A DNA stretch of 64,000 nt from positions 1 to 64,000 of the forward strand of contig JANRDC010000016.1 in assembly GCA_030726725.1 (NCBI GenBank). Reading direction: 5' to 3'. Positions 5,499-46,248 of the stretch are shown here, piece after piece; positions within the stretch are counted from its first letter, which is position 1, and every line of letters begins with the position of its first letter. The stretch comes from Flavobacteriaceae bacterium. Its GTDB lineage: Bacteria > Bacteroidota > Bacteroidia > Flavobacteriales > Flavobacteriaceae. A program made the position numbers and the translations under genes. The notes beneath the pieces were generated by a model. It searched no databases. It was not told where the DNA came from and was given only the letters and a program-made list of their open reading frames with translations.

Positions 5499-6475
5499 GC
5501 GATTTCCAGCATGCGCTGTATGGGTTTACGCGCCCGAGCGATCAAATCCTCAGACAAAAAGATTTCTGGGGCTTCATCCCTGAGGCAGCGGTATAATTTT
5601 TCCAATGTGTTTACCTTCATGTACGCGCACTCGCTGCAGGCGCAGGTGTCGTCTTGAACTGGAGCGGGAATAAAGGTTTTGTGGGGCGCTCTTTTTTTCA
5701 TCTCGTGAATAATCCCCACCTCAGTACCCACAATGTATTTTTGCGCGCTGTCGTTTTGCACATAATCGAGCAAACCAGAGGTGCTGCCTATGTACTTGGC
5801 CAGATCCAAGACAGCCGATTCGCTCTCAGGATGGGCGATAAATTGCGCATCAGGGTGCTCTTGGAAGAGCTTGACAATTTTTTCAAAGGCAAATGCTTCG
5901 TGCACCACACAAGCACCCTCCCACAAGATCATGGGCCGACCGGTTTGTTGGATCAAATAACGCCCTAAATTTCTGTCTGGGGCAAAAATGATTTCTCTTT
6001 CCGGATCAATACTGTTGATCACCGCGACCGCATTGCTCGAGGTGCACACCAGATCGCTGAGCGCTTTAATTTCCGCAGTGCAATTGATGTAGGTAACCAC
6101 AAGAGCTTCAGGATGTTGGGCTTTGAGCGCGCTCAAAGCTTCTGGGGGACAAGAATCCGCAAGCGAACATCCCGCGTTCAAATCCGGCAACCAAATGCGT
6201 TTGGACGGATTGATGATTTTGGCAGTTTCCGCCATAAAATGCACCCCGGCAAAAACAATCACATCTGAGGTGACTTGCTCAGCTACCTTGGCCAAATACA
6301 GGCTGTCTCCTAAGTAGTCAGCAACATCCTGTATGTCTGCCTCTTGGTAATAGTGGGCCAGAATGCAGGCGTTTTTTTCCTTTTTCAACCGAGCGATTTC
6401 TTCCTTTAGCCCGGTTTTATCCAGGGTAATCGGAGCCACTTCGCTCTTTTTGTGCGGCAAAATAGACGTGTACAT
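5495..6475 (-). CDS. nadA: Quinolinate synthase
   Basis: NadA condenses iminoaspartate with dihydroxyacetone phosphate to quinolinate using a 4Fe-4S cluster. The three cluster cysteines can be placed: C103 in NAGCSLAD, C144 in VCTSSNAV and C283 in SECAYMKVN. Two further cysteines (C278, C280) sit close to the third ligand. The 326-residue length and motifs such as [14 protein letters not shown] and [11 protein letters not shown] are typical. It is the first gene of the nad operon, with a promoter box about 19 bases upstream of the ATG. Confidence 0.97.
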
Positions 6476-21003: not shown

Positions 21004-21033
21004 TTGGTAAATTTCTAAATATTCCTATCTTTG
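21004..21033 (+). promoter_or_regulatory. Promoter of the DUF177-rpmF operon
   Basis: TTG at 21004-21006, a 19-base spacer and TATCTTTG at 21026-21033, followed by CACCCGC, is a complete Bacteroidota-type promoter (TTG-N19-TAnnTTTG). The DUF177 ATG lies 43 bases further on. Confidence 0.7.
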
Positions 21034-21076
21034 CACCCGCCTTTGGCCCAACTACATTTGCCTAAACTGACACCTC

Positions 21077-43304: not shown

Positions 43305-43913
<609 letters not shown>

Positions 43914-43936
43914 CGCATGTTGAACTGCGCCTAGCA

Positions 43937-43973
43937 AAAACCCCCTGAGGCATCCGCCTCAGGGGGTTTTTTA
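43937..43973 (+). terminator. Rho-independent terminator of the superoxide dismutase gene
   Basis: AAAACCCCCTGAGG and CCTCAGGGGGTTTT form a 14-bp perfect stem with a six-base loop, followed by TT. It is nearly symmetrical and could stop transcription from both sides. Confidence 0.92.
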
Positions 43974-44046
43974 CATAGAAAAAGCCGGCGCAAGCCGGCT
44001 TTTTCATCCCAAATCTTACCATAAACTTAACCTACTTATGCTATGG
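43974..44046 (-). ncRNA. Candidate small RNA between the sod and purF terminators
   Basis: A complete promoter on the minus strand (44052-44081) points leftward into this segment. The predicted RNA begins near 44046, can form a stem ACCATA/TATGGT (44047-44042 with 44023-44018), and ends at a second hairpin, GCCGGC-TTGC-GCCGGC flanked by AAAAA and TTTTT (43979-44004), which is a good rho-independent terminator in this direction. No gene ends here on the minus strand, because purF has its own terminator at 44157-44183. An ATG just before the terminator would read through it and is not a credible gene. No RNA family is recognised. Confidence 0.5.
43979..44004 (-). terminator. Terminator of the candidate small RNA
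   Basis: AAAAAGCCGGC and GCCGGCTTTTT form an 11-bp perfect stem around GCAA. It works on either strand: for the small RNA on the minus strand, or as a second stop after sod. Confidence 0.85.
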
Positions 44047-44051
44047 TGAAA

Positions 44052-44081
44052 CAAATGTAGTGATATGGGTATAATCTACAA
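44052..44081 (-). promoter_or_regulatory. Promoter of the candidate small RNA
   Basis: On the minus strand TTG (44081-44079), a 19-base spacer and TACATTTG (44059-44052) make a complete TTG-N19-TAnnTTTG promoter, the same geometry as the rpmF promoter. The nearest gene on this strand downstream is the AddA-like gene, almost 900 bases away and behind sod. Confidence 0.6.
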
Positions 44082-44156
44082 GGGAAATTAACTGAGTTTT
44101 CACATTGTTTTTCAGTGAGTTATTCACAATATATGAGCAAAGAGAACAAGAAGATA

Positions 44157-44183
44157 AAAAGGCGGGCCACCGGCCCGCCTTTT
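44157..44183 (-). terminator. Bidirectional terminator after purF
   Basis: GGCGGGCC and GGCCCGCC form an 8-bp all-GC stem around ACC, flanked by AAAA and TTTT, so it works on both strands. On the minus strand it would end the purF transcript about 170 bases after its stop codon. Confidence 0.88.
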
Positions 44184-44349
44184 CCCCAATCTAGCCACTG
44201 GCCACCTACTAGCGCGTGGTTATACCGCTAAATTAACCATCGGTTCCCAGGCTTAACAAATGATTTGACACAGAGCACCCGTTTGGTGTTCAGTGGCACA
44301 GCAGTGCGTTAAACGAGGGGCTTTAGGGGCTGATCGCTAGTGAAAGCGA
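44184..44349 (-). other. Non-coding 3' region of the purF transcript
   Basis: About 165 bases separate the purF stop from its terminator. No credible open frame is present. Small inverted repeats occur, such as TCGCT/AGCGA near 44331 and a GAGCACC/GGTGTTC stem near 44274-44292, and the direct repeat ACTAG-CG next to the stop. It may be only a long 3' untranslated region or may hold a 3'-derived small RNA. Confidence 0.35.
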
Positions 44350-46248
44350 CTAGTAAGCGCGTTCGTTTTTGCCTTCAAAGAAGTTGATGAATGCCCGGTT
44401 AACTACCCGCATCCCTCCAGGTGTGGGGTATTGGCCCGTAAAATACCAGTCACCTTGGTGCATGGGTATGGCCAAATGAAGGTTTTCAATGGTTTGGAAT
44501 ACGATTTCCACCTCTGCGCGTACTTCTTTAGGGGTCAATAACTCACCGATTTTACGGGAGACTTCCTCTACGGTAAACGGTGCGTAAAATTCGGTAACGT
44601 GATTGATTGCCTCTTGATCAGGAAGTTCAGCTTGGGCGACACATCGGTGGTAAATTTCTTCGACCAGATTCATGGTCCCCCGTTCTTGATGCAGGGCTAG
44701 GGCTGCTTTAAAGGCGATAAAATCCTCCAGCTTGGCCATATCAATGCCGTAACAATCCGGGTAGCGGATTTGAGGAGCAGAGGAAACGACAATGATTTTT
44801 TTTGGATTGAGGCGATCAAGAATTTTTAAGATGCTTTTCTTTAAAGTAGTACCGCGCACGATACTGTCATCGATGATGACCAAGTGATCGGTTGGGCGGA
44901 CAGAACCGTAGGTAATGTCATAAACGTGGGCTACTAAATCGTCCCTTCCGCTGTCTTGAGTGATAAAGGTGCGCAGTTTAGCGTCCTTGATCGCCACTTT
45001 TTCAATGCGGGGTCTGATGTCGAGAATCTCGTGGAGTTCCTCTGGGGAAAGCTGACCTTTGGCCGCCAGAATTTGCTCCTCTTTCTTTTTGTTGAGGTAG
45101 CGCTGAGCGGCACGCACCAATCCGAAGAAGGAAGTTTCCGCGGTGTTGGGGATGTAAGAAAAGACCGTGTTTTTTAGGTCGTGGTCGATAGACTCGAGGA
45201 TTTGAGGGAATAGGTATTTGCCCAGGGCTTTGCGCTCTTGGTAGATTTCAAGGTCCGAGCCTCTGGAAAAGTAAATCCGCTCGAAAGAACAAGATTGACG
45301 CTTTCTGGGTTCCAGTATTTCCGGCATGGAAACCGATCCGTCTTTTTTGACGATTAAGGCATGGCCTGGATCAATTTCATGAACCTCTTCAAAAGGCACA
45401 TTGAATACAGTTTGAATCACTGCGCGCTCAGAAGCCACAGCAACAATCTCGTCATCTTGATAGTAAAAGGCAGGTCTGATTCCTGAAGGATCCCGGAGCA
45501 CAAACGCGTCGCCGTGTCCAATCATGCCGGCCATCGCATATCCGCCATCCCAGTTTTTTGAGGCTTTCTTTAAGATTTTTGCCACGTTTAAACGATCGGC
45601 AATCAAGGGGGTGGCCTCTTTTTTTGTCACGCCCTCTTCTTTTATTTTCTTGTAGAGTTTAGCCACTGCATCGTCCAAAAAATGGCCGATTTTTTCCATG
45701 ACCGTAATGGTGTCCGATTGTTCTTTGGGGTGCTGTCCCAAGTCCACTAGGTTGTTAAACAACTCGCGAACGTTGGTCATGTTGAAGTTTCCAGCCACAA
45801 TTAGATTGCGGTGCATCCAGTTGTTTTGTCTCAAGAAAGGGTGTACACTTTCGATGCTGTTTTTCCCAAATGTTCCGTAGCGAACGTGCCCCAAAAGCAC
45901 TTCTCCGATATAGGGGATTTCCGCTTTTTGGCGATCGACGTCATGGAGCAGACTCGGGTCTTGATCCAGGGCTGTGTTGATGCGCTCGTTGATCTGATCA
46001 AAGATATCCATGATCGGTTGAGCTTTGGCTGAACGCACACGACTCATAAAACGAGAGCCTGGAGGCATGTCGAGCTTGATGCTGGCAAACCCAGCGCCAT
46101 CCTGGCCCCGGTTGTGTTGCTTTTCCATCATCAGGTACATTTTATTGACCCCGTAAAAGGCTGTACCGTATTTTTTTTGGTAGTAGTCAAGCGGCTTTAG
46201 CAGCCGAATTAAGGCAATTCCGCACTCGTGTTTGATGGCATCACTCAT
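44350..46248 (-). CDS. purF: Amidophosphoribosyltransferase, long Bacteroidota form
   Basis: PurF makes phosphoribosylamine from PRPP and glutamine, the first step of purine synthesis. The catalytic cysteine is C9 in KHECGIALIRL. The glutaminase domain has EKQHNRGQDGAG and LLGHVRYGTFG; the phosphoribosyltransferase part has the PRPP loop VIIDDSIVRGTTLKKS. At 632 residues it is well above the 470-510 of most PurF proteins; extra charged helical insertions lie at about residues 195-235 and 385-430, with an extended C-terminus. Eight residues precede Cys9, so N-terminal processing is expected. The -7 box lies 4 bases before the ATG, suggesting a leaderless message. Confidence 0.93.
   Translation of the reverse strand: MSDAIKHECGIALIRLLKPLDYYQKKYGTAFYGVNKMYLMMEKQHNRGQDGAGFASIKLDMPPGSRFMSRVRSAKAQPIMDIFDQINERINTALDQDPSLLHDVDRQKAEIPYIGEVLLGHVRYGTFGKNSIESVHPFLRQNNWMHRNLIVAGNFNMTNVRELFNNLVDLGQHPKEQSDTITVMEKIGHFLDDAVAKLYKKIKEEGVTKKEATPLIADRLNVAKILKKASKNWDGGYAMAGMIGHGDAFVLRDPSGIRPAFYYQDDEIVAVASERAVIQTVFNVPFEEVHEIDPGHALIVKKDGSVSMPEILEPRKRQSCSFERIYFSRGSDLEIYQERKALGKYLFPQILESIDHDLKNTVFSYIPNTAETSFFGLVRAAQRYLNKKKEEQILAAKGQLSPEELHEILDIRPRIEKVAIKDAKLRTFITQDSGRDDLVAHVYDITYGSVRPTDHLVIIDDSIVRGTTLKKSILKILDRLNPKKIIVVSSAPQIRYPDCYGIDMAKLEDFIAFKAALALHQERGTMNLVEEIYHRCVAQAELPDQEAINHVTEFYAPFTVEEVSRKIGELLTPKEVRAEVEIVFQTIENLHLAIPMHQGDWYFTGQYPTPGGMRVVNRAFINFFEGKNERAY

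Follow-up and report, generated by a model that had tools for sequence, protein, structure and literature searches.

Trans-encoded antisense RNAs that act against the mRNAs of small peptides are known from Escherichia coli, where the pairs are IstR-1/TisB, OhsC/ShoB and OrzO/ZorO. Multicopy small RNAs (sRNAs) under a signalling system include LhrC of Listeria and Qrr of Vibrio, and the VirR-controlled regulatory RNAs of Clostridium perfringens lie behind tandem direct repeats of the LytTR type. To our knowledge, few sRNAs of the Bacteroidota have a defined target. In Bacteroides thetaiotaomicron, FopS forms a paralogous sRNA family of 14 members, which in the accessible text of its description has sigmaA-type promoters, acts near start codons through a single-stranded 5' seed with no 5' hairpin, and targets susC-type mRNAs (PMC11697453). 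Flavobacterium psychrophilum makes a set of independent short transcripts, Rfp1-89, among them Rfp18, which the accessible text says pairs with protease mRNAs via its third stem-loop (PMC9723704).

The locus described here lies between purF and sod in a 64,000-nt stretch of a Flavobacteriaceae genome (hereafter the window) and encodes a predicted sRNA. Like the three E. coli RNAs, it is a short RNA from a separate gene that is predicted to pair with a small-peptide mRNA and would block its translation; unlike them, it usually has tandem gene copies with no linkage to the target, mostly in genomes with no detected Hfq, and promoter repeats are common to sRNA and target. With LhrC and Qrr it shares several near-identical sRNA genes and probable signalling control, but sequences, targets, regulators and phyla are all different, and as in the VirR system a regulatory RNA sits behind tandem direct repeats, with a putative regulator in the present case. 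FopS is likewise a multicopy Bacteroidota family with sigmaA-type promoters and action near start codons; here, however, a 5' hairpin is predicted in the folded copies in place of a single-stranded 5' seed followed by a terminator, and the copies usually form a tandem array at one locus, an arrangement that the accessible text does not describe for FopS (PMC11697453). No FopS-named match was returned by Rfam for region 43900-44360. Compared by its description in the accessible text of PMC9723704, Rfp18 differs from the present sRNA, which has two stem-loops, and one of the Rfp RNAs may be a member of the family presented here.

Predicted sRNA genes between purF and sod

The preliminary description had proposed that the minus strand between sod and purF carries a small RNA gene complete with promoter and terminator. 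The elements on which it relied, namely the TTG-N19-TACATTTG promoter, a hairpin (CCATA/TATGG) and a GC-rich terminator of 11 bp, are all found where it had placed them (Table 1), with a linker core, GAUUUGGG, between the 5' hairpin and the terminator of this first copy, and the conservation described below supports reading them as parts of one RNA gene. The promoter pattern by itself is weak evidence for an sRNA, as the TTG-N19-box pattern occurs four times in the window where 1.03 would be expected, and at least four times in 2 of 100 shuffles. The box of copy 1 is placed as in the 111 non-redundant regions upstream of copies in relatives, the copy 1 RNA folds better than its own shuffles (z -3.2), and it scores 81.9 bits with R1, a model whose source alignment includes copy 1. 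A simple terminator scan of the window did not return the copy 1 hairpin, the stem of which includes the T-run. Elsewhere in the window, two overlapping full matches to TTG-N19-TAnnTTTG follow one another at 21004-21060 (+). A minus-strand open reading frame of 57 aa (43849-44022) spans both terminators, and the linker length shifts by one base between clades; on these two grounds we rejected it as a protein.

Table 1. Positions of the predicted sRNA copies, their elements and neighbouring features (window coordinates), with loci carrying the alternative promoter type
Feature	Position or loci	Strand	Remarks
sRNA copy 1, predicted RNA	43979..44047	-	~69 nt, 5' end 44047
Copy 1 promoter	44052..44081	-	TTG at -33 region, N19, TACATTTG at -12..-5
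Copy 1 5' hairpin	44018..44047	-	apical loop GUAGG at 44035-44031; CCATA/TATGG stem in DNA
Copy 1 linker AAGATTTGGGATG	44005..44017	-	single-stranded; with loop, predicted pairing region
Copy 1 terminator hairpin	43979..44004	-	11-bp, GC-rich; corresponding part covaries in relatives
Upstream element of copy 1	44082..44109	-	conserved; possible regulator site
sod terminator	43941..43972	+	hairpin 43941-43966 and T-run; neighbour, outside sRNA
purF	44350..46248	-	genomic neighbour
sod	43305..43913	+	genomic neighbour, convergent
sRNA copy 2, diverged	44156..44220	-	loop GUAGG 44209-44205, stem CCAC:GUGG, terminator 44184-44156
Copy 2 promoter box TAATTTAG	44228..44235	-	putative; shifted 3 nt upstream relative to copy 1
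CACAATACCAGTATTTTAG-type promoter copies	L004, L006, L022, L025, L029, L030, L031, L033-L037		nearest sod

The stretch 44157-44183 had been taken for purF's own terminator. The hairpin at this place, preceded by ACCACGCGCTAGTAGGTGGCCAGTGGCTAGATTGGGG, actually terminates a diverged second copy of the sRNA, which scores 26.7 bits with R1 and accounts for the weak one of the two R1 matches in the window's own genome (one clear, one weak). Copy 2 aligns with a paralogous copy of the genus and keeps the GUAGG loop and the GAUUGGGG linker, with CCAC:GUGG replacing CCAU:AUGG in the stem. It is present, together with its box TAATTTAG, in L002, the closest relative with the region, and in L021 (the same contig as L003), and the stem exchange is one clade-level event.

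Between the window and L002, the copy 1 RNA is identical at 68 of 69 positions, the copy 2 RNA at 60 of 65, and the 28 nt upstream of the copy 1 -33 element at all 28, against 57 of 100 on the purF side and 14 of 25 from the sod stop to the sod terminator. Among 60 sampled copies, mean pairwise identity is 0.93 in the 5' domain and linker, 0.73 in the terminator part and 0.58 upstream. Judged from these comparisons, the predicted RNA is kept under strong selection in the window's species. They also bear on the reading that a promoter-like match happens to stand before tandem terminators of sod and purF. The fourfold occurrence of the promoter pattern in the window and the many terminator-only R1 matches in the own genome lend this reading some substance, but it is contradicted by the 5' domain and linker, which lie outside the terminator and are the best conserved part, and the conservation of RNA and promoter region between the window and L002 rules out a chance promoter match; we regard its probability as negligible.

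Conservation in relatives had also been put forward as a check on the gene and its stems. The promoter box, loop, linker and terminator hairpin are indeed kept, while terminator letters and flanks change. For the stems the outcome is divided: 8 of the 12 consensus pairs of the terminator hairpin covary, but the outer 5' stem shows no significant covariation (83.9% paired cells versus 83.4 in shuffles). Sliding the partners of the outer 5' stem lowers the paired cells to 24-48%. Folded alone, the 5' hairpin has a z of about -2 in its main form; in copy 2 and in the paralogue of the genus the value is -0.3 to -0.5.

The family is widespread. With one genome per genus, 52 of 60 Flavobacteriaceae genomes carry the sRNA at E <= 1e-7, and the intergenic sequence used as a query has matches in 16 of 40 genomes (relatives and own), many of them multicopy and about 200 nt apart. 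A search of 246 genomes of the order with R1 gave 42 strong matches (E 2.7e-9 or better), all in Flavobacteriaceae, ten members of which had no match and one (G189) a weak match only; the best match outside the family reached 35.9 bits, a strength at which matches are mostly terminator-like noise. We also collected purF loci, taken as the best 80 of 569 from a purF search of named genomes, and the core pattern is found 174 times, in 79 sources that include the window (some of the G-numbered genomes may duplicate species of these named loci). The predicted RNA is 67-77 nt long in all but three of the 169 copies with a clear T-run (140 distinct), five copies without a T-run of four being left out. 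Duplicate or overlapping loci (L001, L003, L017-L021) were omitted from the counts of purF-locus copies and upstream regions.

Usually, one to six tandem copies lie just downstream of purF on the purF strand, with a convergent sod beyond them in most loci. Where purF and sod are separated, in G018 (L142/L143) and G270 (L144/L145), each has retained one sRNA copy. Extra copies stand beside unrelated genes in G277 and G017 (L146 at ~1276 (-) and L147 at ~1183 (+)), with no repeats recognised by eye at L146 or L147, and the copies of G303, an assembly with 6% contamination, are spread over two contigs. At some loci, e.g. L043, L052, L095 and L100, purF and sod are adjacent and no copy was found. 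The 5' stem of a third copy, at L062:6364-6438, is damaged, and the usual place upstream holds no promoter box; this copy is perhaps decaying or promoterless.

In Rfam 15, the sole family above its gathering threshold in the whole window is a tRNA elsewhere. Region 43900-44360 has 42 matches to E 10, all below gathering, the best of them, ncr1175 (34.2 of 60 bits, E 1.8e-4), lying over the hairpins, and across six sRNA-bearing loci only Flavo-1 (RF01705) was found, away from the sRNA. Flavo-1, also an Rfam RNA of Flavobacteriaceae and located elsewhere than the sRNA array, is at L071:8394-8471, about 2 kb from the array of that locus. The accessible text of the literature, including PMC9723704, PMC5395568 and PMC11697453, describes neither the RNA nor the peptide discussed below; the sRNA tables for F. 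psychrophilum and F. columnare may list the RNA, and a literature search with its core letters returned nothing. At the level of sequence, these data confirm the putative sRNA as an RNA gene of a Flavobacteriaceae-wide, usually tandem family outside Rfam.

Promoters and direct repeats upstream of the copies

With the start set at the first hairpin base, a box TA[CT][TA]TT[TA]G lies at -12 to -5 in the 111 non-redundant upstream regions, which is the position of the F. psychrophilum sigmaA box TAnnTTTG in the accessible text of PMC9723704. The set derives from 173 regions, less 50 that were too similar (123) and 12 of another promoter type; the L062 copy at 6376, whose start is unclear, was left out. 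Further upstream, near -53 to -42, a repeat box with the consensus GCCGTTCATCTA occurs in 93 of the 111 regions, and 71 of these 93 have a second one 20-21 bp beyond it, where about 0.5 would be expected from shuffled upstream parts; because the matrix used to score the first box had been trained on these very sequences, the independent evidence is the second box and the target promoters only. We take these direct repeats to resemble LytTR/AlgR/ComE boxes, and the relatives fit a LytTR-type layout, in which two direct repeats, spaced by about two turns of the helix, stand upstream of a promoter. LytTR domains were found in 23 of the 25 Flavobacteriaceae searched, with two in the window's own genome. 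Given the repeats observed, a LytTR-type regulator probably activates the sRNA copies in most relatives. The window's own copies are without repeats, and upstream of copy 1, the 28-nt conserved element included, no repeat box scores above 2.5 bits.

Not all copies have this arrangement. In twelve of them, mostly the last before sod, the direct repeats are replaced by a different promoter around CACAATACCAGTATTTTAG or a close variant (Table 1), and copies with different promoters seem to respond to different inputs. Five loci (L023, L026, L030, L033 and L036) have, between purF and the first copy, an inverted repeat like GATGAAATGCAC..GTGCATTTCATCGAT, which holds the repeat-box sequence in both directions.

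A small peptide gene downstream of scoB as predicted target

Complements of the linker and loop were searched in 21 Flavobacteriaceae genomes, own included, and 20 stretches were hand-picked among the matches listed. Three of these (L138-L140, from three genera) lie downstream of scoB, the gene for 3-oxoacid CoA-transferase subunit B (TIGR02428 match), and carry complementary sites on the mRNA strand at a spacing of about 40 nt. scoB is present in 53 of the 60 Flavobacteriaceae genomes, and the region downstream was inspected in 50 (G280, G295, G274 and the second scoB of G311 were left out). A small ORF passed our filter in 38 of the 50; after removal of a spurious one in G307, the gene is found in 37 of 48 sRNA-bearing genomes, that of G275 being doubtful, and is absent within 700 nt of scoB in the other 11 (G288 has it beyond this cut). 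The two genomes with scoB and no sRNA, G021 and G284, have no small ORF downstream. The ORFs code for peptides of 29-44 aa whose conserved end typically reads KKLFML; the peptide family has no Pfam or NCBIfam match.

We computed duplexes between the 5' part of the sRNA and positions -60 to +50 of the ORF in the same genome. Energies, which ignore the RNAs' own folding, range from -18 to -51 kcal/mol and are at or below -30 in 27 of 37 genomes, compared with 7 of 704 control windows (mean -19.5 kcal/mol, lowest -36.1). The median z is -5.9, with values below -3 in 29 of 37; the remaining eight lie above -3, and in four genomes (G217, G314, G275, G283) z even exceeds -1.6. The start codon is inside the duplex in 28 of 37 genomes, and the duplex touches -20 to +15 in all but one (36/37). 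Furthermore, R1, which was built from sRNAs alone, matches the antisense strand of the target start region in G285 with 42.6 bits. The predicted complementarity to a distant mRNA is conserved, as is characteristic of a trans-encoded base-pairing sRNA, and we would class the present RNA as one. Hfq was found in only 1 of 31 genomes (G006) and not in the window's own, making pairing without Hfq likely.

This complementarity is also relevant to a protein-binding role. RNAs of the CsrB/RsmZ type titrate an RNA-binding protein, and the GUAGG loop and GGGG linker could act in the same manner, a view favoured by the loop being kept although the copy 2 stem changed. Long conserved complementarity to one recurrent mRNA start region does not fit such a role, however, and we consider it highly improbable.

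The small ORF itself evolves in two parts. In nine aligned 42-codon genes, picked for this length and for NLP at residues 6-8 and compared pairwise (comparisons that are non-independent), codons 15-42 show coding-like differences of 25, 10 and 40% at positions 1, 2 and 3, versus 22, 14 and 20% in the sRNA-paired codons 1-14. Fourfold sites differ in 31 of 182 cases in codons 1-14 and in 46 of 95 in the later codons. Silent sites in the sRNA-paired codons are constrained. Together with the pairing data, this weighs on the proposal that the sRNA regulates more broadly, through other target mRNAs, and that the small RNA downstream of scoB serves it mainly as a decoy, or sponge. Several leaders do hold more than one complementary site (two or three in some genomes), the own genus retains the sRNA without a detectable peptide gene, and several targets are common for paralogous sRNAs in the accessible text of PMC11697453. 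A sponge, on the other hand, would not need a duplex that touches the start region in nearly every genome, and because the later codons evolve like coding sequence, a pure-sponge reading of the scoB-side sites ranks second; we judge it improbable.

In the window's own genome, no scoB match was found at E <= 1e-60, and a search with the peptide profile A3 gave a best E of 0.44, which is not credible, and nothing in the rest of the genus; elsewhere, five of seven strong peptide matches with A3 were rows of A3 itself. Complements with at most one mismatch had at least six, seven and three matches in the own genome, the last two counts including the sRNA itself, and none was convincing; eleven own stretches around complement matches, folded against copy 1, likewise gave nothing convincing. 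In G005 (L261) the loop complement AACCTACTTATG falls on or close to the start of a yqgE-like gene next to the HU gene, and the own genome has AACCTACCTATG, with one mismatch to AACCTACTTATG, in the same setting (L263, C25:38251-38262). For the window's genus we note the yqgE start as a weak target lead, and additional targets beyond the scoB-side gene are possible.

Promoter repeats precede 25 of the 37 small ORFs, versus 10 of 740 in shuffles. The peptides have a median net charge of +3 and a median C-terminal hydrophobic moment of 0.39, with a median of 6% of shuffles equally high. The amphipathic C-terminus is present in the main clade and absent in a Maribacter-like clade (G299, G107, G022, G272, G279, G012, G287 and G314), where the shuffle fractions are 0.36-0.72. 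Such properties raise the idea of a type I-like toxin-antitoxin system, in which the peptide would be a membrane-active toxin and the array its antitoxin. A small peptide of this charge and C-terminal moment, with antisense pairing over the start of its gene, would suit that role, but the amphipathic signal is missing in the Maribacter-like clade, the genes are unlinked (sRNA at purF-sod, peptide at scoB; adjacency is usual, not universal, in such systems), and sRNA and peptide gene carry the same promoter repeats. We consider this sub-case of the explanation preferred below unlikely on balance; the peptide may equally be a helper in signalling or have some other role.

A probable multicopy antisense sRNA and its possible role

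The best reading of these computational results, to which we give a probability of roughly 0.75, is that the family is a multicopy antisense sRNA repressing a co-regulated small peptide. As judged from sequence and conservation, each copy would be transcribed from its own sigmaA-type promoter and ended by its own terminator, and in most relatives a putative LytTR-type response regulator would turn the copies on through the two direct repeats. The GUAGG loop and the GAUUUGGGG linker would initiate pairing in trans with the small mRNA downstream of scoB, and pairing would then extend, as computed, to much of the sRNA 5' half with the leader and start codon. Translation of the 29-44 aa peptide would thereby be blocked, and the sRNA-mRNA duplex may be open to cleavage. 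Several gene copies may serve dose and speed, and those with different promoters may serve different inputs.

More tentatively, and at somewhat less than even odds, the purF-sod array and the scoB peptide gene may form an unlinked, Flavobacteriaceae-wide module in which one LytTR system fires both and the array, through long Hfq-independent antisense pairing, imposes a threshold or pulse on a membrane-active peptide; streamlined lineages, the window's among them, would have kept the RNA and re-used it for another target after loss of the peptide gene.

The analysis thus points to a widely conserved sRNA family with a specific, testable target and to a peptide that matches no Pfam or NCBIfam model. 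The shared promoter repeats suggest that one signalling system makes both the repressor and its target, which renders the proposed circuit directly testable.
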